64,000 bases of DNA from Anaerolinea sp. (GCA_020723805.1 DYID01000012.1:1-64000), one strand, 5' to 3'; counted from the stretch's first letter, positions 27,976-39,440 are shown. The notes: generated by a model from the sequence alone, not told the origin. Program-made: numbers and translations.

Positions 27976-28905
27976 ATGACCCCTCCTCCCTTCACTTTCC
28001 TCGAATCCCCCCGCTGGGAAGATTATGCCCTGCTCGACAGCGGCGACGGGCTGAAACTCGAACGTTTCGGCAGATACGTCTTTGTGCGCCCCGAAGCGCA
28101 GGCGATGTGGAAACGCGCCCTGCCCGAATCGAAGTGGACGAACACCGACGCGGTGTTCGTCCCCACCGGCGAGGAAAGCGGCGGTCATTGGGATTTCAAG
28201 AGGAAGGTGGAGGAGAGATGGGAGATGAGATATACCCTCACCCCTGTCCCCTCTCCCACAGGGAGAGGAGAATTGAGGTTCTGGGCAATGACCACGCCGG
28301 GGCGGCACCTGGGCGTTTTCCCTGAAGTGGCGGCGCACTGGGATTGGTTCTCAAACCTGATTCACCACGAAGTACACGAAGGGCACAAAGAAGTCAATGT
28401 CTTGAACCTGTTCGGATACACGGGACTCGCCACCCTTGCCGCCGCCTCCGCCGGCGCCAAAGTCACGCACGTGGACGCTTCGAAAAAAGCCGTAGGCTGG
28501 GCGCGTGAAAACCAGGCATTATCCAATCTGACAGAGCGCCCCATCCGCTGGATCGTGGACGACGCGCTCAAGTTCGTTCAACGCGAGGCGAGACGCGGAG
28601 TCAAGTACGACGGCATCATCCTCGACCCGCCCAAGTTTGGGCGCGGACCGAAAGGCGAGGTGTGGGAGGTGTACAAGTCTCTGCCGAATCTGCTCGAAGC
28701 CTGCCGGGCGTGTTTGAGCGACCATCCCCTCTTCGTGGTGGTGACTGTTTACGCGGTGCGCGCTTCGGCGATCCATGCAGCGCAGGCGCTGGATGAAATG
28801 ATGAAGGGGTTTGGTGGAAAAGTGGAAAGCGGGGAGCTGGTCACGCGCGAGCAAAGCGCGGGGAGGCTGCTCTCGCAGGCGGTGTTTGCGAGGTGGGAAA
28901 AATAA
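27976..28905 (+). CDS. SAM-dependent rRNA methyltransferase, RlmI/RlmK-like
   Basis: A class I methyltransferase of 309 residues with the RlmI-type core: VLNLFGYTGLATLAAASAGA (SAM loop), VTHVDASKKAVGWARENQAL, WIVDDALKFVQRE and the catalytic-site IILDPPKFGRGPKGEVW. Members methylate C5 of cytosine or N7/N2 of guanine in 23S rRNA; which base is modified here is not clear, and the N-terminal PUA domain of RlmI is missing. Two repeat-like peptides are inserted in frame: RYTLTPVPSPTGRGELR (DNA 28231-28275) and IHHEVHEGHKEVNV (28357-28400). Divergent from the dcw operon. Confidence 0.85.
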   Translation: MTPPPFTFLESPRWEDYALLDSGDGLKLERFGRYVFVRPEAQAMWKRALPESKWTNTDAVFVPTGEESGGHWDFKRKVEERWEMRYTLTPVPSPTGRGELRFWAMTTPGRHLGVFPEVAAHWDWFSNLIHHEVHEGHKEVNVLNLFGYTGLATLAAASAGAKVTHVDASKKAVGWARENQALSNLTERPIRWIVDDALKFVQREARRGVKYDGIILDPPKFGRGPKGEVWEVYKSLPNLLEACRACLSDHPLFVVVTVYAVRASAIHAAQALDEMMKGFGGKVESGELVTREQSAGRLLSQAVFARWEK

Positions 28906-28969
28906 AACTTCATACGACAAAAGTTCGTCATTTGCCAAAGCAACACATGGGCAGATTTGAGCATTTGAA

Positions 28970-29005
28970 AAAAGTGCGCTTGAGATTATTCAAGCGCACT
29001 TTTTA
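28970..29005. terminator. strong bidirectional terminator
   Basis: A long perfect stem (AAGTGCGCTTGA / TCAAGCGCACTT) with A-run and T-run flanks lies between the methyltransferase gene and the convergent AT-rich island, so it can stop transcription from both sides. Confidence 0.85.
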
Positions 29006-29065
29006 TCTCTGAGGATGGAACCACCACGAGAGAAAAGATACGGTTTTTCAACTCATGGGTATCGA

Positions 29066-29527
29066 TCACTTTACAACCACCTGATTAATCGTACCTCCAT
29101 CACCTGCATAGCCGCCGTCCTGCCACCAATGCTGAACATAATTATGCAACCGTCGCGTCTGTCCGGCAGGGCAGCTCACTTTGGTTTGTGCCATTGTGTC
29201 CCAGCTTGTTGTCACGTTATAGTGCATCAAAAAGGAATTCGGAGGGAATTGATACTGAACATAGGTGTTGTTTTGTATTGTATAGTTACAACTTACGTAG
29301 GTCTGCCACACGGTCACTCCGAATTGATCCATGCTGAAAGAGGGACTGGTCCAGTCGTTATAATTTGGATTCCAGCAACAACTCCCATTATCATAAATGT
29401 TATTGGTGTAATAAATAGTCGTCAAAGAGTGATAGTTTTTGGACGCAGCAAAAGCTACAGTGGTTGTGACAATCAATGTCACGATGACAAGAAAGAGCCC
29501 AAACGGAAAGCGATGCGGCTTTTTCAT
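29066..29527 (-). CDS. secreted hypothetical protein, Cys- and Tyr/Trp-rich
   Basis: A 153-residue protein with a clear signal peptide (FLVIVTLIVTTTVAFAASK, cleavage probably after AFA). The mature part is rich in Asn, Tyr, Trp and Cys (GSCCWNPNYNDWTS, VSCNYTIQNN, KVSCPAGQTRR) and should be disulfide-bonded after export. No family recognised. It is the last of five genes read in one direction behind a response regulator and starts ten bases behind the previous gene with a GGAGAT ribosome site. Codon use and base content are more AT-rich than the flanking core genes. Confidence 0.7.
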   Translation of the reverse strand: MKKPHRFPFGLFLVIVTLIVTTTVAFAASKNYHSLTTIYYTNNIYDNGSCCWNPNYNDWTSPSFSMDQFGVTVWQTYVSCNYTIQNNTYVQYQFPPNSFLMHYNVTTSWDTMAQTKVSCPAGQTRRLHNYVQHWWQDGGYAGDGGTINQVVVK

Positions 29528-29537
29528 AATTGATCTC

Positions 29538-30407
29538 CTAATTGCTGAAATAGTTCAGGATTAAATCGGATGGACGATCAATCTTCTCAACACGAATATT
29601 CGAGATACGTTGTGAGATCTCCATATTTCCATCAAGACCCAAAAAATAATCCTCTATTTGTACAGGCAGGCCAGTGTCGAGAGAAAAGTAATACTTAAAA
29701 ACCACACCACTTATTTCTCTGGCTTTTTTTTCTTGCGTGTCTTTCAGGATTTTGACAGGTTTTTCATATCTTTCAGTAACCATAAAAATAACGACATTCT
29801 GCCCATTCATGACTTCCTGGTATTCGTCAAGGTTTACAGAGTCTTTATACGGAAGGACTGTACCAAAGAAACCGCTATCTAATCCGGGCTTGTAAGTTTC
29901 AGGTTCAGAAGACGAAATGCCCAACGAAAGATTTGTCCAGATGCCTTTTTCAAAAACACTGATTTGGGAGGTGGATTGACTACCCGTATCTTGTATTGAA
30001 ACAGCCTTGATCGCATTCCCATTTTCATCGAGATACACCCACAAATCATCCGTCCATTTGGCTGGCACGGGAGAACCGTCGGGCATTACCGTTGACGCTG
30101 ATATAAAAGATTCTGTTTGGGAAGAAATATGCAGCCAGCCCGCCGTAAGATATACACTCTCAGTGTTGCGAATCAACCTCTCAGCATCCTTCAATACATC
30201 GTCGCTTTTTAATCTTTCATTACCCCCCAGCGGAATTGAATTTGAATCATTCGGGATAGCCGTATCAGAAGTCATTGGAACCGAAGAATCGTATTTGAGA
30301 GTATCCTTCAGAACACTTTTCTTCGCTCCTGCTAGGTTAATTTGTGTTATAACCAAACCGGCCAATACAATGCAACCACACAGGAATAGCCACGTTTTAA
30401 TTTTCAT
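29538..30407 (-). CDS. hypothetical membrane-anchored protein of the AT-rich island
   Basis: A 289-residue protein with one N-terminal membrane segment (WLFLCGCIVLAGLVITQI) and a large outer part. The outer part has a mixed alpha/beta look with VYLTAGWLHISSQTESFIS, LDENGNAIKAVSIQD, GVVFKYYFSLDTGLPVQIED and IRVEKIDRPSDLILNYF, a pattern loosely like LolA/outer lipoprotein carrier-type beta sheets. I do not recognise the family. The start is taken at the ATG with AAAGGAG upstream rather than an earlier in-frame codon. Confidence 0.66.
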   Translation of the reverse strand: MKIKTWLFLCGCIVLAGLVITQINLAGAKKSVLKDTLKYDSSVPMTSDTAIPNDSNSIPLGGNERLKSDDVLKDAERLIRNTESVYLTAGWLHISSQTESFISASTVMPDGSPVPAKWTDDLWVYLDENGNAIKAVSIQDTGSQSTSQISVFEKGIWTNLSLGISSSEPETYKPGLDSGFFGTVLPYKDSVNLDEYQEVMNGQNVVIFMVTERYEKPVKILKDTQEKKAREISGVVFKYYFSLDTGLPVQIEDYFLGLDGNMEISQRISNIRVEKIDRPSDLILNYFSN

Positions 30408-30520
30408 TTTTTCTCCTTTCTGTGAAACCATGACGCAAAACATCATCTCAAACTTGCTTCCTTGTTTGGAAGTCGCACAATAAACGTCAGTTCGGAATAT
30501 AAGGAAAAAAACGCTTTGCT

Positions 30521-31279
30521 TTACGGAGCGGCAATCTCAAATTCCCACGGACCTTCCCTGCTTTCGACCATGGCTTCCATGACCATCTTTTGCGCCAGCG
30601 CCTGATCCATGCCGTTGGGCTTGGCAATCATCTCGACCCCGCTCAAACCTGGCTCGGTGGGGCATTTGATTTTTATGCCCAGGTTTTTCGCATCCAACTT
30701 TGCCTGTGCCTGGCTGCAATCGGGGTTTTCCGGCATGGCGGTTACCAATTTCTCTATCGAGATTTTCAAGTTTTCAAGCGCAAACCCCTGCGGCAACGGG
30801 AACCCTACATGGTCGCACCGCCCGGCAAACCTGCCTTGATCGTCCTTTTTCAACAAACCGGTCTGTGGATCTGGAATCATTTCAATGGAATAGACCCCAA
30901 TCTCTGCCACACCATTGCTCAATTTCAAATAATCAGGTCCTCCCAGTTCCCAAGCGGGGTTATCGGATGGGAAGTCAAAGCAAAGGTCGGCATATAAAAA
31001 GCCGGCGTCCAATTTTACACCCAGCAACTCGATTTTTATATTGTTTTTTGTCTGCACCATCGGATAGGCGTTCTTTGGCAAAGCGGCAGTATTTGCCAAA
31101 GGATTATCTGCACTGGCAGGAGGATTTTGAGAATTATTGGTCTGGAGGATCAACGCCTTCTCGACCGGCATCGCCGCTGCGGAAGCGGGACGATTTGCAA
31201 CGATCACAATGACCGCAGCGCTCAAGGCGCCGGTGATCAAGAGCGCAATCAAGGCAATATCGAAATATTTGCGAAACAT
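30521..31279 (-). CDS. hypothetical membrane-anchored protein of the AT-rich island
   Basis: A 252-residue protein with an N-terminal anchor (IALIALLITGALSAAVIVIV) and an outer domain that begins with a strand-rich segment (NNIKIELLGVKLDAGFLYAD). Several Cys residues (DLCFDFP, GRCDHVGF, NPDCSQAQ, IKCPTEP) again suggest disulfides outside the cell. No known family is recognised. The ATG at 31279 is chosen because AAGGAG lies six bases before it; the ATG two codons earlier would touch the SD. Confidence 0.65.
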   Translation of the reverse strand: MFRKYFDIALIALLITGALSAAVIVIVANRPASAAAMPVEKALILQTNNSQNPPASADNPLANTAALPKNAYPMVQTKNNIKIELLGVKLDAGFLYADLCFDFPSDNPAWELGGPDYLKLSNGVAEIGVYSIEMIPDPQTGLLKKDDQGRFAGRCDHVGFPLPQGFALENLKISIEKLVTAMPENPDCSQAQAKLDAKNLGIKIKCPTEPGLSGVEMIAKPNGMDQALAQKMVMEAMVESREGPWEFEIAAP

Positions 31280-31299
31280 TTTCATCTCCTTATCTAAAA

Positions 31300-31770
31300 T
31301 CAAGGTGTGCACGGCGATCCAACAGGGGCTGAAATGGGATTGGCAGATATATGCCCACACGCCAGCCATCCGGGCGGATTGGCTATCCCAGAATATCTCT
31401 GCTGGCTGACTACAGCCTTATTGACTGCTATCTTGCCGCCCGAAGAGACCGAATAGTAATAGGGCGAACTCTGAAACCACAGGGTTGCATTTGCATAAAA
31501 AGACCTTCCCAGCCCATCCGTATTTGTGGTCTTCGCCCAGAGCGTATAACAATTGGTCGAATACCGCAAATCAACTCTGCTACTTGCGGGATATATCGTT
31601 TTTACATTCGTGACAGAATCACCACAACCTGTAGAACTGGCAAACGAGCCGTTACACCCTGTGCCGCTGCAGGTTGCCGCCAAAACAACCGAAGCAAGCG
31701 GAAAACTGCCTGCCAGCACAAACAAGATCGTGAGCAGCAGAATCAAAACAGGTTTTAACTTTTGCATCAT
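31300..31770 (-). CDS. secreted DUF2690-like protein
   Basis: A 156-residue exported protein. Signal peptide (PVLILLLTILFVLAGSFPLA, cut near VLA-ATCSG). The mature part begins CSGTGCNGSFASSTGCGDSV, then VDLRYSTNCYTLWAKT: the C.G..C.G....GC and LRYS..C...WA pattern is that of DUF2690, a family of small secreted or surface proteins best known from Actinobacteria; it is recognised from memory. AAGGAG lies five bases before the paired ATG codons. Six or more Cys residues imply disulfide bonds. Confidence 0.72.
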   Translation of the reverse strand: MMQKLKPVLILLLTILFVLAGSFPLASVVLAATCSGTGCNGSFASSTGCGDSVTNVKTIYPASSRVDLRYSTNCYTLWAKTTNTDGLGRSFYANATLWFQSSPYYYSVSSGGKIAVNKAVVSQQRYSGIANPPGWLACGHISANPISAPVGSPCTP

Positions 31771-31826
31771 TTTCTCCTTATGTTTGTAATTCTGCAACGC
31801 ACTATAGCAGATGCAATAATTCCATT

Positions 31827-32477
31827 TCAAGTACGGAAATCCGTACCTTGTTCCACCCACCACAAAATGGCTTCAGACCTCGAAGTTACCCCCAATTTCT
31901 TATAAATGTTCTTCAAATGCTTCTCCACAGTATTGATTGATACATTCAACGAAGCGGCAATCTCTTTGTTATCTGCACCGTTCGTCAGCAGTTTCAACAC
32001 CTCCCGCTCGCGGAGTGACAGACTTTCCCACTTTCTGCCCACCTCTTCCCTCCAGAGCCGCGCCCGTTCCATTTGCTCTTTATCATACAACCATTCGCCT
32101 CGCGCTGCCCGCCGAATGGCATTGAGCAGGTCGTTGCCTTTTAGTTTTTTGTCCAAATAACCTGTCGCGCCAGCATCCATCATATCTGCCAGGTACGCAT
32201 CCCGGTGGTGGGCGGTCAACACCAGCGTGATGGTTTCAGGATAATTGTTCCTCACCCATTTTTCAAGTTCGATGGGGTTATGATTGGGCATCACCAAATC
32301 CAATAGCAGAACATCGGGCTGCAATTCAGCAACCTTTTGTTTGATCTGATTGCCATCCTGCACTTCGCCAACAACCTGCATATCGGAAGCCTTGTTGATA
32401 ATGGTACGAACTCCTTCGATCCAGCCGGGATGATCGTCAGCAATCAAGATGGTGATGATTTTTGGAAAAGGCGGCAT
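31827..32477 (-). CDS. NarL/FixJ-type response regulator (LuxR HTH)
   Basis: A 216-residue two-component regulator. Receiver domain with acidic pocket (ILIADDHPGWIEGV), phospho-acceptor Asp in VLLLDLVMPNH, Thr in VLTAHHRDAY and Lys in GYLDKKL. The C-terminal LuxR-type helix-turn-helix reads LSLREREVLKLLTNGADNKEI and SINTVEKHLKNIYKKLGVTS. No histidine kinase is adjacent. It is the first gene of a five-gene set with exported proteins, so it probably controls them. The start with GGAG before MPPFPK is preferred over a longer reading. Confidence 0.92.
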   Translation of the reverse strand: MPPFPKIITILIADDHPGWIEGVRTIINKASDMQVVGEVQDGNQIKQKVAELQPDVLLLDLVMPNHNPIELEKWVRNNYPETITLVLTAHHRDAYLADMMDAGATGYLDKKLKGNDLLNAIRRAARGEWLYDKEQMERARLWREEVGRKWESLSLREREVLKLLTNGADNKEIAASLNVSINTVEKHLKNIYKKLGVTSRSEAILWWVEQGTDFRT

Positions 32478-32656
32478 AAAATCTCCTTGCTTTTCACTTT
32501 CCAAGGCTGCAAACAAGAAAAATTCTATGGTCTTTTTTGTATACGTCAATCAACGATTGCCCTACGCCCTCCTTAATCCTCCCTAACCTTTTCCTAGACA
32601 AAACCTTTTTGGCATGGGAAAATCTGAAACCAATATTAGCAAAAGGAGCATGCTGC
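32478..32656. promoter_or_regulatory. divergent control region between response regulator and DsbA-like genes
   Basis: A 179-base AT-rich gap between two genes read away from each other. Both have good ribosome sites (GGAG; AAAAGGAG). Promoters for both must lie here; no clear -35/-10 pair or inverted operator stands out by eye. Confidence 0.45.
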
Positions 32657-33400
32657 ATGTCCATCGAGAAGAAAAGCAAACGCTTGGAACGGCGCGAGAA
32701 ACTGCGCAAAGACGCCATGAAGAACCGCCTTGCCGTCATTGGCTTGATCACCGCCGGCGCATTGCTGGTGGTGCTTGCCGTCATCTGGCCCCAGTTCACC
32801 ACCATTGACGACCTCATCGTCCCCGAAGCAAAGACTCTTCCCAACCCCGACGGACTGAGTCTCGGCGATCCCAACGCCCCCGCTGTCATCGAAATCTTCG
32901 AGGATTTCCAATGTCCCGCCTGCCAATACTTCTCCGAGAACATCGAGCCCCTCATCATCCAATATCTCGTCGAGACCGGCAAAGCCCGCCTGGTTTACCG
33001 CCACTACCCCTTCATTGACGGACCCGGCGCAAGCAACGGCGGTGAATCGGATCAAGCCGCCAACGCATCCATGTGCGCCAACGAACAAGGCAAGTTCTGG
33101 GAAATGAAAGCCGTCATCTTTGCCAACTGGAACGGCGAAAACCAGGGCAACCTCAGCAACCGCCGCCTCACCGCCATGGCGGAAGCCATCCACCTCGACA
33201 TGAACGCCTTCAACGCCTGCTTCGACGCCAACAAATACAAAGCCGACATCCAAGCAGACTTCGACCGCGGCGAAGAACTCGGCGTCAGCGGCACGCCCAG
33301 CGCCTTCGTCAACGGCGTTCAGGTCGGTCAGCCAGGCAAAGTCCCCACTTTTCAGGAAATTGCCGTGGCGGTGGATGCCATCGCCGGCACAGGCGAATAA
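32657..33400 (+). CDS. membrane-anchored DsbA-like thiol-disulfide oxidoreductase
   Basis: A 247-residue protein with a basic cytoplasmic start, one membrane helix (about 23-44) and an outer thioredoxin/DsbA fold. Active site CPAC (Cys86 and Cys89) in EIFEDFQCPACQYFSENIEP, helical insert, and cis-Pro loop GVSGTPSAFVNG. This is the family that puts disulfide bonds into exported proteins. It stands divergent from an operon for several Cys-bearing exported proteins, which are plausible clients. A longer start would add a Cys-containing but non-conserved segment; the ATG with AAAAGGAG upstream is chosen. Confidence 0.93.
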   Translation: MSIEKKSKRLERREKLRKDAMKNRLAVIGLITAGALLVVLAVIWPQFTTIDDLIVPEAKTLPNPDGLSLGDPNAPAVIEIFEDFQCPACQYFSENIEPLIIQYLVETGKARLVYRHYPFIDGPGASNGGESDQAANASMCANEQGKFWEMKAVIFANWNGENQGNLSNRRLTAMAEAIHLDMNAFNACFDANKYKADIQADFDRGEELGVSGTPSAFVNGVQVGQPGKVPTFQEIAVAVDAIAGTGE

Positions 33401-33414
33401 CTTCCATACCCCAC

Positions 33415-33447
33415 AAAAGAGGGACGCGCTTGCCGCGTCCCTTTTTG
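33415..33447 (+). terminator. rho-independent terminator after the DsbA-like gene
   Basis: 8-bp GC stem GGGACGCG / CGCGTCCC with a 5-base loop, A-run before and TTTTTG after. Confidence 0.85.
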
Positions 33448-33501
33448 ATTCCCCGCCGGGTTCAAGCGTTATAATGACAGCGGACGATGATTTTTTCTCA
33501 T

Positions 33502-33523
33502 GCGAACGTTAGAGAACGTTCGC
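33502..33523. repeat. short dispersed motif GTTAGAGAACG, copy 2, perfect inverted repeat
   Basis: GCGAACGTT AGAG AACGTTCGC: nine-base arms around the AGAG centre, in front of the alpha-2-macroglobulin gene. CGCGCCC follows as in copy 1. It could be an operator or just a small repeat. Confidence 0.45.
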
Positions 33524-33602
33524 TGCGCGCCCCTTCCGGCGCGTAATAGGCGCTCTCCAGCGTCAGGCGTGTCACGCTGCACATGAACTTTTATGAGGAC
33601 TC

Positions 33603-36600
33603 ATGATGAAAACCCGCTTCTCCCTCGCCTTGCACTGCCTCATCCTCCTCAGCCTGCTCCTCGCCTCTTGCGGAGGCGTCCCCACCCTGCCCCAACTTCC
33701 GCAACTCATCGCCGCTTCTCCCACCCCTGCCCCACAAGCCTCTGCCGCGCAACAGACCTACCCGCCAGCCCTCGTCGAAACCGACCCGCCCGCCGGCACC
33801 GTCATCGGACATCTTTCCCCCATCACCTTCTACTTCAACCAGCCGATGAACCGCGCCTCCCTCGAGGATGCCATCCACGGACTGCCCGACGGCGTTTTCA
33901 CCTGGAGCGACGATGCCACCCTCGTCTTCACCCCCGCCCAACCCTATCCGCCCGATTCCCCTCTGAACCTTGAAATTGCCCAAACCATCCAATCCGCCGG
34001 CGGATTTGCCGCCCTCGCGCCGCAATCCATCTCCTTCACCGTCGCCGACTACCTGCGCCCGGTCAACCTGCTCCCCAAGCCCAACACCACCGATGTGAAC
34101 GTGGACGCCGCCATCGCCGTCTCGTTCAACCAGCCGGTGGTGCCGCTCGGCGCAGAGGCTTCCTCCCTCCCGCCTGCGTTCGTCATCACCCCCGCCGTGC
34201 AGGGACGCGGGGAATGGATCAACACCAGCACTTACATCTTCCATCCGCAAACCGCCCTGCTCGGCGGCACGGAATACACTGTCAGCGTGAACGATGCTTT
34301 GAAAACCGCAACAGGCGTCGGCTTGGATCGAACCGTCGTCAACGCCTGGAAGTTCGTCACGGCGCGTCCGCGCGTCGTTGAAGTGAATCCATCCCCCGAC
34401 GACTTCATCCCGCCCGACGCCCGCATCGAAGTCACCTTCAATCAACCGATGAACCGCCAGAGCGTGGAGGCAAACTTCTCACTGAACGGACCCGCCGGCG
34501 CGGTGAGCGGAACCTTCGAATGGCTGGACGACAGTTCGGGTTTTTCCTTCATCCCAAAATCGCCGCTGGCGCGCGGCACGGCATATACGTTGAAGTTGAA
34601 CGCGGCGGCGACATCGCAGGGCGGCGTGACGCTGAAGAGCGATTACAACGCCTCTTTGCGCACCTATGAAAACCTCGCCGTGCGTACCACCGAAACCAGC
34701 ATCAGCGGCATCAACTTTCGCTTCACCGCGCCGCTGGCAAACACCAACTACGACAAGCTGGTGAGCATCTCGCCGGCGGTGGAAAACATCTCTGTCACTG
34801 CCGACGATTCGACCCTTTACCTTTACAACCTCCAGCCTGGCACCACCTATCTGATTGAACTCTCCGCGCAAATCAGCGACCTGTGGGGGCAATCGCTTGG
34901 CTCACCCTACCGCATCGAGGTGCAAACGCCCCCCCTCACCCCCAGCCTGTGGATTACCCCCTTCTCGTCCACCCTGTTCGTCCGCCCGGACGAACCCCTG
35001 CTCTCCGCCAGCGCCGTCAACATCCAAAGCGCGGACGTGACCGTCGCGCCGCTGACGGTGCAGGACTTTTTCACACTTCAAGCCTCCCCCGACCTGCGGC
35101 AGACCTACGCGCCGCAAAACCCAGCCACCTCATCTCAAACCTTCACCCTCACCCCCAACCTTCAAAGCAATGTGAAATTGCGTCTGGCAGAACCGAACAC
35201 CCAACTGCCGCCCGGCTTGTACTACGTGAACGTCGCCTCACCGCAACTCCAATCGAAATCCCAACTCATCCAGTTCGTTGCCTCCAGTCAAGTCAATCTC
35301 ACGTTCAAACTCGGCGCGGCAGATGCGCTCGTCTGGGCGGTGGATTTGTCCTCGCAGACGCCGGTCGCCGGCGCAGCGGTGACCCTTTACGATGAAGGGG
35401 GGAACGTCCTAGCCAGCGGCGTCACCGATGCGAACGGACTCTGGCAGGGCGCCGTCTCCCCGGTCACAGGGCAGGTCTATGCCATGCTCGCCGCGCCCGG
35501 CGACCCCAACTTCGCCCTCGCCGCCAACACTTGGAACAGCGGTCTCAATGCCTGGGACTTTGGCTACGAACAGAACATCCAGCCGCCGCACACCCAAATC
35601 TATTTTTACACCGACCGCCCCATCTACCGCCCCGGGCAAACAGTGTACTATCGCGGCATTGTCCGCGAGGCGTTCAACGGACGCTACGAACTGCCCGCCG
35701 TCACCTCCGTCCCCATCTTCCTGACCGACGCGCAAGGCACGCAGCTGGCGTCCATCAATGCGCAACTCTCCCCCTACGGCACTTTCAACGGTCAATTCGA
35801 ACTCTCGCAGGAAGCCGTGCCGGGCCACTACATTTTCCAAAACAGCGCCCTCAATTTCTTCTTCTACTTCGAGGTGGCGGAATACCGCAAACCCGAAATT
35901 GACCTCAACGTCACATTTCTCAACGACCAGATTCAGCAGGATGGCTCCACGCAGGCAGAGGTCAGCGCCCGCTACTTCTTCGACGCGCCCGCCGCGAACG
36001 TGGATGTGCGCTGGGCGCTGTATTCCACACCGGATTATTTTTCACTGCCCGGCTATCAAACGGGACCGATTGATTTTGACTGGCTGGATGCCTTCCGCAT
36101 CCCCGCCGGGGCAGACTCCCGCTACTTCGGGAAATTCCTCAAAGAAGGCTCGGCTCAAACTTCCCCCGGCGGGACCCTCGCCATCAGCCTGACCGCCCTC
36201 CCCAAAGCGGACACGCCCCGCCGCCTCACCCTCGAAGTGACCGCCACCGACGAAAGCGGACTGCCCGTCAGCGCCCGCAGCGAACTGACCCTCCATCCCG
36301 CCGACTTCTACATCGGCGTCCGCCCCGACCGCTGGGTGGGAACGGCAAAAGCCGAACTCGGCTTCGAACTCTACACGGTGGACTGGGAGCGCAATCCCAC
36401 CGGCGAGAAACGCCTTGCCGCCGAATTCAAACAAGTGCGCTGGGAAACCTCGCTGGACGAAAACGGCTACCCCCAATACACTCCTGTTTACACCACAGTT
36501 GCCAGCGTCAACCCCGCCACCGGCGCAGACGGCAAAGCGCGGGTTTCGTTTACCCCGCCTGCCGCCGGCACCTACATGCTCGATGTCAGCAGCGGCAGCG

Positions 36601-39440
36601 CGCGGACTCAAGTGCTCGTGTGGGTCGGAGGCGAGGGCGCCTCCGCCTGGCCCGACCTGCCCAACCAGCGCCTCCAACTAACCGCCGACAAAGATTCCTA
36701 CAAACCCGGCGAGACCGCCGCCGTCTTCATCCCCAACCCCTTCCCCACCAATGCCCTTGCGCTGGTGACGGTCGAACGCGGGCGCATCTCGAAGGCGGCA
36801 GTTCTCCCCGTCAGCGGGAGCGGCGTCGAGTATGCCATCCCGCTCAGCGACGACGACGCGCCAAACGTGTACGTCAGCGCAACGGTGCTGGGACAGGGCA
36901 ACGACTTCCGTCATGGGCTGGTCAACCTCCCCGTCGCGCCCGATGCGAAAGCGTTGAAGGTGCAGTTGTTTGCCAATCCGCCCGAGGCGGGTCCGCGCGA
37001 TCAGGTCACCTTCGATGTGGTTGTCACCGATCAGCAGGATCAGCCTGTGCAGGGCGAGTTCTCGCTCTCTGTGGTGGACCTCGCCACCTTGAAACTGGCG
37101 GATTCCAACGTGGAGGACATCCTGCCCGCCTTCTACGGCAATCAGCCGCTCGGCATCGAGACCGCCCTCTCGCTGGCGATGTATGGCGGGCGCAACTTCC
37201 TCGAACCCGGCGGGCTGGGCGGCGGAGGTGGAGATGAAGGCTCGTTCATTCGCGAAGACTTCCCCGACACCGCCTACTGGAACCCGTCGCTCATCACCAA
37301 CGCCGAGGGGCGCGGACAGGTGACCCTCACCCTGCCCGACTCGCTCACCACCTGGCAGGTGGACGTGCGCGGTCTTACGGTGGATACCAAAGTCGGTCAG
37401 GCGCAGACGCAAATCGTCTCTACCAAACCTTTGCTCATCCGCCCGGTCACGCCGAGGTTCCTCGTCAGCGGCGACCATGTGCTGATGGCGGCGGTCGTTC
37501 ACAACAACACCGGCAACCGCCTGAATGTTTCGGTCAATCTTCAGAGCGAGGGCTTCGTGCTGGATAACCCCGCCTCCGCTACGCGCACCTTCGAAATTTC
37601 GCCCTATGCGCAGGCGCGCGTCGAGTGGTGGGGCGTGGCGGGGCTGGCGAAGGAGGCGGACTTGGTCTTCTCCGTCACCACGAACGGGACGCCCTCCCTG
37701 CAGGATGCGGCGCGACCGGTCTGGGGCAAACTGCCCATCTTGCAATATGTCTCGCCGCAGGCGTTCGTCACGGGCGGATTTTTGCGCGGCGCCTCGGCAC
37801 AGCAGGAAGTCATCTCCCTGCCGCGCACGTTCGCGCCCGGTCCCGGAAGCGGCTTGGAAGTGGAACTCAGCCCCTCGCTGGCTGGCAGTTTGTTGTCCGC
37901 GCTGGAAGCGGTGGAGGTCCCGCCCTATTCCGTCAGCGCAGAGGCGACTCTTTCCTATCTGCTTCCCAACGTCGAAGTCCACCGCGCCTTGAACAACGCC
38001 GGCTTGAGCGACCCCGAACTCTCGCAAAGAATCGAAAAGAATCTCAACGCCAGTGTGAGCCGCATCCTGTCTTTGCAAAACGCAGACGGCGGCTGGAGTT
38101 GGTGGGGGCAGGCGTCCCCCCAAGTTGAGGGGACAGCAGGGGGGTCCGAGCCGTATATTTCCGCGTATGTGCTGTTTGGCTTGCTGCGCGCGCAGCAGGT
38201 TGGCGCCTCGGTCAATCAGGAGGCGTTGACCCGCGCAGTGACCTACCTGCAAAAGACGCAGGCGGAAATCACCGCAACCACCAGCGGCGCCGACCTCGAT
38301 GAAGCCGTCTTCGTCCAATTCGCTTTAAGTCAGGCAGGTAGTACCGATCCCAGCCGCACCGACACCCTCTATGCGGCGCGCGACCGCATGAGCCCCGCCA
38401 GCCGCGCCCTGCTCGCCTCCATCATCCACACCATCAACCCCGCCGACCCGCGCGTGAGTGAACTGCTCAACAACCTCACCGCAGAAGCCATCCGCACCGC
38501 CTCCAGCGCGCACTGGGAGACTCCGCCGCAAAACATCCTGCGCCGCGGCTCGCCCATTTACACCACCTCGGTGGTCGTGTACGTCCTTGCTCAACTCGAC
38601 CCCGCCAATCAGGTCCTGCTCGATGCCGTCCGCTACCTCAACGCGCACCGCAACGCGCGCGGCTTGTGGAGCGCCGCTCACGAAAACGCCTGGGCGATGA
38701 TCGCACTCAACGAGGCGATGGTCGGCATCGGCGACCTGCGCTCCGACTTCTCCTACAGCGCCACGCTCAACGGCAATCCGCTCACCAGCGGCGACGTGAA
38801 CGGCATCCAGCTCGAACCGCTCAAGGCGAACGTCGCGCTCGAATTCCTCTCGCCTCACTCGCCCAACCTGCTCACCATCCAGCGTGAAGACGGACTGGGG
38901 CGTCTGTTCTACAACGTCGTCCTGAAGGTCAACCGCCCGGTGCAGGATGTTCAGCCGCTCAACGCGGGAATGGGAATCGAACGTGTGTACTGCCTCGCCA
39001 AATCGAAGGACTGCACGCCTCTCACCGCCCTGAAACTTGCTCCTGACCAACCGGTCACCGCCCGGCTGACGCTGACTCTACCTCACGACGCCTACTACGT
39101 CATGGTCGAAGACCACATCCCGGCCGGCATGGAAATCCTGAACCGCAATCTCAAAACCAGCCAGTTGGGCGCAGACACCACCGGCGTGAAGGTTCAATTC
39201 AAGGACGAAGACCCCTTCGCCGAAGGCTGGGGCTGGTGGCTGTTCAACGAACCGCAGATTCACGATGAGGGCATCCTCTTCACTGCCGATTATCTCCCCG
39301 CCGGCTCCTACGTGCTGACCTACACCCTCATCCCCGTGCAGGCGGGCGAATTCCAGGTCCTTCCCGCCCATGCCTGGCAAGCCTTCTTCCCCGACGTGCA
39401 GGGAACGAGCGCAGGGATGCTCTTCAAAATCGAACCGTAA
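33603..39440 (+). CDS. alpha-2-macroglobulin-family lipoprotein without the thioester Cys
   Basis: A very large exported protein of 1945 residues. It begins with a lipoprotein signal (LILLSLLLASCGG, lipobox LASC). Bacterial Ig-like/MG domains follow (repeats of ITFYFNQPMNRASLEDAI-type Big_5 segments at about 60-330), then MG2 (IYFYTDRPIYRPGQTVYYRG, near 670), a bait-like Gly-rich region, the A2M domain (AYWNPSLITNAEGRGQVTL) and the alpha-helical TED domain (LQNADGGWSWWG). Such proteins trap or block proteases at the cell surface. The expected thioester motif (CxEQ in PYGCxEQ) is replaced by PPYSVSAEATLSYLLP, so covalent trapping is not expected. A short repeat-like insert (PQVEGTAGGS) interrupts the TED. 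No PBP1C neighbour. Confidence 0.9.
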   Translation: MMKTRFSLALHCLILLSLLLASCGGVPTLPQLPQLIAASPTPAPQASAAQQTYPPALVETDPPAGTVIGHLSPITFYFNQPMNRASLEDAIHGLPDGVFTWSDDATLVFTPAQPYPPDSPLNLEIAQTIQSAGGFAALAPQSISFTVADYLRPVNLLPKPNTTDVNVDAAIAVSFNQPVVPLGAEASSLPPAFVITPAVQGRGEWINTSTYIFHPQTALLGGTEYTVSVNDALKTATGVGLDRTVVNAWKFVTARPRVVEVNPSPDDFIPPDARIEVTFNQPMNRQSVEANFSLNGPAGAVSGTFEWLDDSSGFSFIPKSPLARGTAYTLKLNAAATSQGGVTLKSDYNASLRTYENLAVRTTETSISGINFRFTAPLANTNYDKLVSISPAVENISVTADDSTLYLYNLQPGTTYLIELSAQISDLWGQSLGSPYRIEVQTPPLTPSLWITPFSSTLFVRPDEPLLSASAVNIQSADVTVAPLTVQDFFTLQASPDLRQTYAPQNPATSSQTFTLTPNLQSNVKLRLAEPNTQLPPGLYYVNVASPQLQSKSQLIQFVASSQVNLTFKLGAADALVWAVDLSSQTPVAGAAVTLYDEGGNVLASGVTDANGLWQGAVSPVTGQVYAMLAAPGDPNFALAANTWNSGLNAWDFGYEQNIQPPHTQIYFYTDRPIYRPGQTVYYRGIVREAFNGRYELPAVTSVPIFLTDAQGTQLASINAQLSPYGTFNGQFELSQEAVPGHYIFQNSALNFFFYFEVAEYRKPEIDLNVTFLNDQIQQDGSTQAEVSARYFFDAPAANVDVRWALYSTPDYFSLPGYQTGPIDFDWLDAFRIPAGADSRYFGKFLKEGSAQTSPGGTLAISLTALPKADTPRRLTLEVTATDESGLPVSARSELTLHPADFYIGVRPDRWVGTAKAELGFELYTVDWERNPTGEKRLAAEFKQVRWETSLDENGYPQYTPVYTTVASVNPATGADGKARVSFTPPAAGTYMLDVSSGSARTQVLVWVGGEGASAWPDLPNQRLQLTADKDSYKPGETAAVFIPNPFPTNALALVTVERGRISKAAVLPVSGSGVEYAIPLSDDDAPNVYVSATVLGQGNDFRHGLVNLPVAPDAKALKVQLFANPPEAGPRDQVTFDVVVTDQQDQPVQGEFSLSVVDLATLKLADSNVEDILPAFYGNQPLGIETALSLAMYGGRNFLEPGGLGGGGGDEGSFIREDFPDTAYWNPSLITNAEGRGQVTLTLPDSLTTWQVDVRGLTVDTKVGQAQTQIVSTKPLLIRPVTPRFLVSGDHVLMAAVVHNNTGNRLNVSVNLQSEGFVLDNPASATRTFEISPYAQARVEWWGVAGLAKEADLVFSVTTNGTPSLQDAARPVWGKLPILQYVSPQAFVTGGFLRGASAQQEVISLPRTFAPGPGSGLEVELSPSLAGSLLSALEAVEVPPYSVSAEATLSYLLPNVEVHRALNNAGLSDPELSQRIEKNLNASVSRILSLQNADGGWSWWGQASPQVEGTAGGSEPYISAYVLFGLLRAQQVGASVNQEALTRAVTYLQKTQAEITATTSGADLDEAVFVQFALSQAGSTDPSRTDTLYAARDRMSPASRALLASIIHTINPADPRVSELLNNLTAEAIRTASSAHWETPPQNILRRGSPIYTTSVVVYVLAQLDPANQVLLDAVRYLNAHRNARGLWSAAHENAWAMIALNEAMVGIGDLRSDFSYSATLNGNPLTSGDVNGIQLEPLKANVALEFLSPHSPNLLTIQREDGLGRLFYNVVLKVNRPVQDVQPLNAGMGIERVYCLAKSKDCTPLTALKLAPDQPVTARLTLTLPHDAYYVMVEDHIPAGMEILNRNLKTSQLGADTTGVKVQFKDEDPFAEGWGWWLFNEPQIHDEGILFTADYLPAGSYVLTYTLIPVQAGEFQVLPAHAWQAFFPDVQGTSAGMLFKIEP

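Follow-up and report, generated by a model that had tools for sequence, protein, structure and literature searches.

The NarL response regulator of Escherichia coli binds 7-2-7 sites (PMC4549865, PMC9314961) and, at the E. coli ogt1052 promoter, a single NarL site lying 32 bp upstream of the -10 element suffices (PMC9314961). BldM, an orphan NarL/FixJ-type response regulator of Streptomyces, has a 16-bp palindromic site and seems to be independent of phosphorylation (PMC4125116). Among exported proteins, YjfA, a DUF2690 protein of Bacillus subtilis, is present in the exoproteome (PMC10986503).

The window analyzed here (the whole stretch of 64,000 nucleotides from Anaerolinea sp.) contains a block of five genes that we think probably constitutes a regulator-plus-cargo cassette: an orphan response regulator (RR) that, by way of a predicted operator encoded in cis, would switch on a set of exported envelope or surface proteins. 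The cassette resembles the E. coli NarL system in (i) the architecture of its RR, (ii) a 16-bp, 7-2-7 palindrome, and (iii) the presence of one site 32 bp upstream of the -10, a spacing that is, by count, that of ogt1052. It differs from E. coli NarL in that its RR lacks an adjacent kinase, its predicted operator is local (in the 3' end of the RR gene itself), and its cargo is exported. With Streptomyces BldM (and WhiI) it shares orphan status and a 16-bp palindromic site, and some relatives of the cassette RR have broken phospho-pockets; however, BldM is a global developmental regulator while the cassette RR is local, and the cargo is unrelated. These comparisons with NarL and BldM suggest that the cassette operates in the manner of a known class of activator. 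Its novelty with respect to that class lies in its being self-contained, in the cargo it carries, and in the exchange of that cargo. The features discussed below are as follows (positions are those of the window).

27976-28905, plus strand: methyltransferase (MTase) gene, left neighbor of the block
28900-32570, no strand: extent of the block, from the limits of DNA homology to the empty site in genome G014
28969-29004, no strand: strong intrinsic terminator, bidirectional in appearance, at the end of the operon (-21.8 kcal/mol, z -6.7)
29066-29527, minus strand: P1, small exported Cys-containing protein, 153 aa
29538-30407, minus strand: P2, exported protein with an RseB/LolA/LprG-type fold, 289 aa (AlphaFold2, Foldseek, VIA)
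30521-31285, minus strand: P3, Ig-like beta-sandwich, membrane-anchored or secreted, 254 aa, 4 conserved Cys (AlphaFold2, fold matches, alignment)
31300-31770, minus strand: P4, exported DUF2690-like protein, 156 aa, 6 conserved Cys (Pfam, alignment)
31801-31830, minus strand: predicted cargo promoter, -35 TTGAAA (31830-31825), 18-bp spacer, -10 TATAGT (31806-31801)
31831-31846, minus strand: predicted RR operator in the RR 3' end, perfect palindrome GTACGGA-TT-TCCGTAC
31827-32477, minus strand: RR, orphan NarL/FixJ-type response regulator, 216 aa (Pfam, subfamily profile, pocket residues)
32522-32549, minus strand: predicted RR promoter, TTGACG-16-TAGAAT (consensus scan only)
32595-32623: DsbA promoter-like site, in a flank common to G014
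32657-33400, plus strand: membrane DsbA-like thioredoxin, resident neighbor of an alpha-2-macroglobulin-like (A2M) gene and outside the cassette

Much of the gene content described in an earlier, sequence-only reading of this DNA was borne out. The five genes are co-directional, in the order RR, P4, P3, P2, P1; an AGGAG-type SD lies ahead of each; and the block is richer in AT than its surroundings (45.9% GC versus 59.2% for the rest of the window). All four products downstream of the RR begin with an N-terminal hydrophobic signal segment. The claim that the unit is bounded by terminators holds on one side: the strong left-hand terminator is real, although it lies beyond position 29066, where the block had been made to begin, while on the right a terminator-like hairpin does exist (33420-33442) but is placed 3' of DsbA, outside the unit.

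The regulator proposed to head the block is confirmed as NarL-type by Pfam (Response_reg, 3e-23; GerE, 7e-21). It combines a receiver that has a complete phospho-acceptor pocket (DD, D, T, K) with a GerE helix-turn-helix (HTH), as NarL/FixJ-type regulators do, and scores 137.5 bits against the NarL equivalog NF007935, which is under the cut-off of 250. A profile search of 101 related genomes returned 27 matches at E <= 2.2e-78, the next best match being at 1.5e-58. In a species-wide genome collection, the relatives of at least 48% identity come from Chloroflexota MAGs (CFX6, UTCFX1, Anaerolineaceae bins), with a sole exception: one 56% contig from a cave metagenome that is labelled Lentisphaera and is probably mis-binned. 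As judged by these searches, the subfamily is sharply bounded and, that contig apart, found only in Anaerolineae-type Chloroflexota. Motif comparison likewise shows it to be a subfamily of orphans, as the sequence-only reading had supposed of the window RR: a histidine-kinase motif lies within 6 kb of only 1/30 subfamily RRs, and none was found within 6 kb of the window RR, compared with a motif within 1.5 kb of 12/12 generic NarL-type RRs. The gene that follows the RR was called exported in 22 of 27 cases by a script applying a simple rule (on inspection, the five non-exported calls look like start-codon or threshold errors), and in 0/4 and 0/7 controls, small numbers since control RRs often lack a co-directional neighbor downstream. 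The phospho-Asp has been lost in 5/34 RRs of the subfamily, so the switch may be something other than phosphorylation.

The 3' end of the RR gene reads GTACGGATTTCCGTAC, a perfect 7-2-7 inverted repeat that abuts the -35 of the predicted promoter upstream of P4, in keeping with a NarL-like site. The identical 16 bp occur in the same place in four relatives (G007, G017, G040, L229), and with one change in two more (G042, G016). Across the last six codons of these seven RRs (the window's included), 116/116 codons at identical residues are themselves identical, against about 0.46 elsewhere in the gene; the seven come from related RRs and are thus not fully independent examples. More broadly, a palindrome together with a -35 and a -10 is present at 28/33 RR ends (absent from five, among them those of G034 and G049), compared with a mean of 4.05 (maximum 11) in shuffles, 0-4 in shifted windows and 1/12 generic RR ends. 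RRs that differ in recognition helix differ in palindrome type as well: INTVEKHL goes with GTACGGA, KTLDKH with TGGGGGATTTTCCGTA, KTxEFH with CTAGGGGATTCCCTAG, and KT[AT]AFH with CTGGnAnTTTTCCCAG, the palindromes of the other groups keeping the same spacing and geometry. At the corresponding position, CTGTGGATTTCCACAG and CTGTGGAAGTCCACAG are found in two solo-HTH sets. We infer that control of the cargo promoter by the RR, via the predicted operator, is well supported.

The putative operator also outlives its regulator. A 20-bp version of the site has 12 matches in the 101 genomes, against none for the reversed control; the window's own genome has it once. Eleven of the 12 lie at RR ends, at RR remnants or at the start of exported operons. 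The remaining match (in G022, with 2 mismatches) falls within unrelated coding DNA and was taken as chance. All that remains of the RR in G002 C461 is a stretch of about 20 C-terminal residues, with the site, P4 and P3 coming next, and similar remnants with the site are found in G021 C3 and G007 C25. Retention of the site in these remnants argues for selection on the DNA site, and suggests that sites without an RR are controlled in trans by another RR.

The first cargo protein, P4, had been read as a DUF2690-like secreted protein, and Pfam agrees: over 50 residues it scores 26.9 bits against DUF2690 (PF10901), the gathering cut-off being 23, making it a marginal member. Like other DUF2690 proteins, such as YjfA, it is a secreted Cys-containing domain; unlike them, it is barely above the cut-off and has P3 as its partner behind an orphan RR. 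P3, P2 and P1 match nothing in Pfam or NCBIfam, in keeping with their earlier description as unfamiliar, and profiles of P3, P4 and P2 gave only chance-level matches to PDB sequences. Structure prediction, which the sequence-only reading had recommended, was informative for two of them. P3 is predicted (pLDDT 94.9) to be an Ig-like beta sandwich resembling the exported bacterial proteins YjhA (3cfu), MPT63 (1lmi), YcdA (4r4g) and 3fbq (Z 8-9.7); it is set apart from these by a GPWxF motif at the C terminus and two pairs of conserved Cys, and belongs to no sequence family. Since its Foldseek search gave no match below 0.001 and only middling Ig-like ones, we assign no function from the fold. 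P3-family matches occur in 45/101 genomes, and P3-family lipoproteins are also found solo beside housekeeping genes in many relatives (e.g., L010:7891-8571).

For P2 (pLDDT 82.5), Foldseek returned RseB (7.6e-5), LolA (9.5e-5) and LprG (2.9e-4), the half-barrel spanning the mature domain, and comparison with RseB by VIA gave Z 10.6. It is thus like RseB/MucB, LolA and LprG in predicted fold and unlike RseB/MucB in sequence and setting, with no RseA or sigma-E neighborhood seen in the cluster. Neither Pfam's MucB_RseB profile nor hhalign to a MucB_RseB-like sister cargo protein (0.5%) placed P2 in that family by sequence; the fold is visible by structure only. The paired Cys noted earlier are conserved in the P3 family and in P4, but the mature part of P2 has none.

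In cargo of related cassettes, Pfam detects MucB_RseB (2.9e-6) in the corresponding slot of G016 and an SLH domain, a C-terminal anchor, in a P1 relative in G050; relatives in G031 and G024 have SLH-like tails by eye. The 153-aa window P1 has no SLH domain by Pfam. Other cassettes encode an Amidase_6 protein (G021) and a protein with a weak Golvesin_C match (0.029; G016). These SLH, weak Golvesin-like, amidase and MucB_RseB domains suggest envelope work, and so point to a cargo acting at the envelope or cell surface; the earlier guess at a surface role thereby gains some support.

A comparison of gene neighborhoods, also proposed with the sequence-only reading, showed that the exported families travel in two pairs. 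P4-P3 are adjacent elsewhere in the window's own genome (C9) and in 13 others (G017, G007, G014, G021, G044, G042, G072, G063, G082, G056, G078, G049 and G065). P2-P1 are adjacent in G086 (twice), G031, G078 and L238, and in G050 are separated by a transposase-like gene of 371 aa (L098:6148-7263). Both RR-P4-P3 and RR-P2-P1 (L238) arrangements recur, and P2-P1-P3 are adjacent in G078; the window unites the two pairs behind one RR. The C9 copy is a second RR-DUF2690-P3 cassette (L009:171-2264) of a different recognition helix and palindrome group. In G044 C3 (L100:1540-4999), an RR with an Asp-to-Gly change is followed by a duplicated RR C-terminal fragment directly before P2.

Comparison further shows that the cargo varies at one locus. 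Cassettes lie beside mraZ-MTase in the window, G007, G017, G010 and G015, and beside MTase in G016 and G002, with cargo consisting of P4-P3-P2-P1, P4-P3-P3, P4-P3, or RseB-like and other sets. The same mraZ-MTase locus holds unrelated DNA in G001, and is empty in G014, where the order is mraZ, MTase, DsbA, A2M, with MTase and DsbA contiguous and the block absent. DNA homology to G014 ends at window position 28899 and restarts at 32570-32573. The window's MTase gene contains, at 28230-28400, the stretches TLTPVPSPTGRGE and HHEVHEGHKE; these resemble peptide insertions derived from repeats, inside a coding gene.

Alternative explanations exist for the palindrome and for the unity of the operon. 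The palindrome encodes the last RR residues, and might have been conserved for the C-terminal peptide GTDFRT, or as an RNA hairpin. We consider this very unlikely: every synonymous position is frozen at the palindrome, three RR remnants retain the site, it is non-coding at +68 in G002 C450, what it adjoins is a -35/-10 pair and not a U-run, and other RR groups have different palindromes of equal geometry. The block could, alternatively, be two units side by side, with the RR controlling only P4-P3 and P2-P1 being an insertion under its own control. P2 and P1 have the lowest GC content of the block (41-44%, versus about 50% for P4-P3) and so may be a later addition with other control; they are preceded by a gap of 113 bp, and elsewhere (G086, G050, G031) they are accompanied by their own short solo LuxR HTH. 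Yet a scan of the P3-P2 gap showed no promoter-like site on the minus strand, RRs of the same subfamily directly head P2-P1 in L238 and lie upstream of P2 in G044, and G078 has P2-P1 next to P3. On balance we regard the two-unit arrangement as unlikely, and a single transcript across the gap as the expected outcome.

Opinions could also differ on what the cargo does, and on which genes serve it. Small, secreted, Cys-rich proteins that vary by strain and are swapped at one locus would suit an antagonism (secreted toxin) or adhesion system; we noticed no immunity-like membrane partner, and the domains of the sister cargo fit envelope or surface remodeling instead, leaving the antagonism or adhesion option rather improbable. 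Least probable of all, with hardly any chance of being correct, is the view first put forward from the sequence: an exported system with the divergent DsbA as its dedicated oxidase, and a control region common to DsbA and the regulator. The four and six conserved Cys of the P3 and P4 families speak for it, as does the position of DsbA beside the block in the window and G007. However, DsbA adjoins A2M without the block in five genomes (G014, G001, G006, G008, G016), the empty site of G014 included, which rules it out as a cassette partner. Nor do the exported families travel with a DsbA gene, so that the refuting test named with that view goes against DsbA: DsbA is next to a cassette only in the window and G007, and beside none of the other cassettes examined, including the second RR-P4-P3 set in the same genome (C9). 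Because homology to G014 restarts at 32570-32573, the DsbA promoter-like site falls in the old, conserved flank and the RR promoter-like site inside the block; the two do not form one control region. What stands of the proposal is an exported set with conserved Cys and an orphan RR, parts of which recur together in other genomes. The DsbA-like gene and the gene for a 1945-aa A2M lipoprotein (32657-39440) are stable neighbors in several genomes, and two tandem DsbA genes lie beside A2M in G006, G008 and G016; this pair may therefore be a real disulfide partnership.

Returning to the regulator-plus-cargo cassette, its mode of action can be outlined. An RR dimer would bind the 16-bp palindrome overlapping the last codons of its own gene, in the position of a class II activator abutting the -35 box, and would recruit RNA polymerase to one promoter transcribing P4-P3-P2-P1. 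The products would be exported by their signal peptides, folded with conserved disulfides, and active at the envelope or outside the cell. Cargo would be exchanged between strains, and operons that lose the RR body and retain its tail could be driven in trans.

A recurring cassette of regulator plus exported cargo is, then, a real feature of Anaerolineae-type Chloroflexota, and apparently an undescribed one: our literature search found nothing on Chloroflexota orphan RR cassettes and nothing relevant on DUF2690. More tentatively, and with the odds slightly against us, we propose a modular surface-variation system consisting of (i) a lineage-specific RR family, (ii) group-specific operators in the RR 3' ends, and (iii) interchangeable exported cargo, with a favored locus beside mraZ and the cell-wall/division cluster where cargo differs by strain. 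Operons with decayed RRs would stay under the trans control of whichever RR of their recognition type survives, and together these would make up a small regulon that assembles itself.

The work makes a testable regulon out of five anonymous genes of the Anaerolineae-type Chloroflexota, a group little studied genetically. New exported families (P1, P2 and P3) receive names, and the DUF2690 domain, itself unstudied, gains a setting in which it is regulated. The RR groups and their matching predicted operator groups offer a natural set for studying how NarL-type helices choose DNA, and the operator retained in decayed regulator genes would be a clear case of cis sites outliving their regulators.
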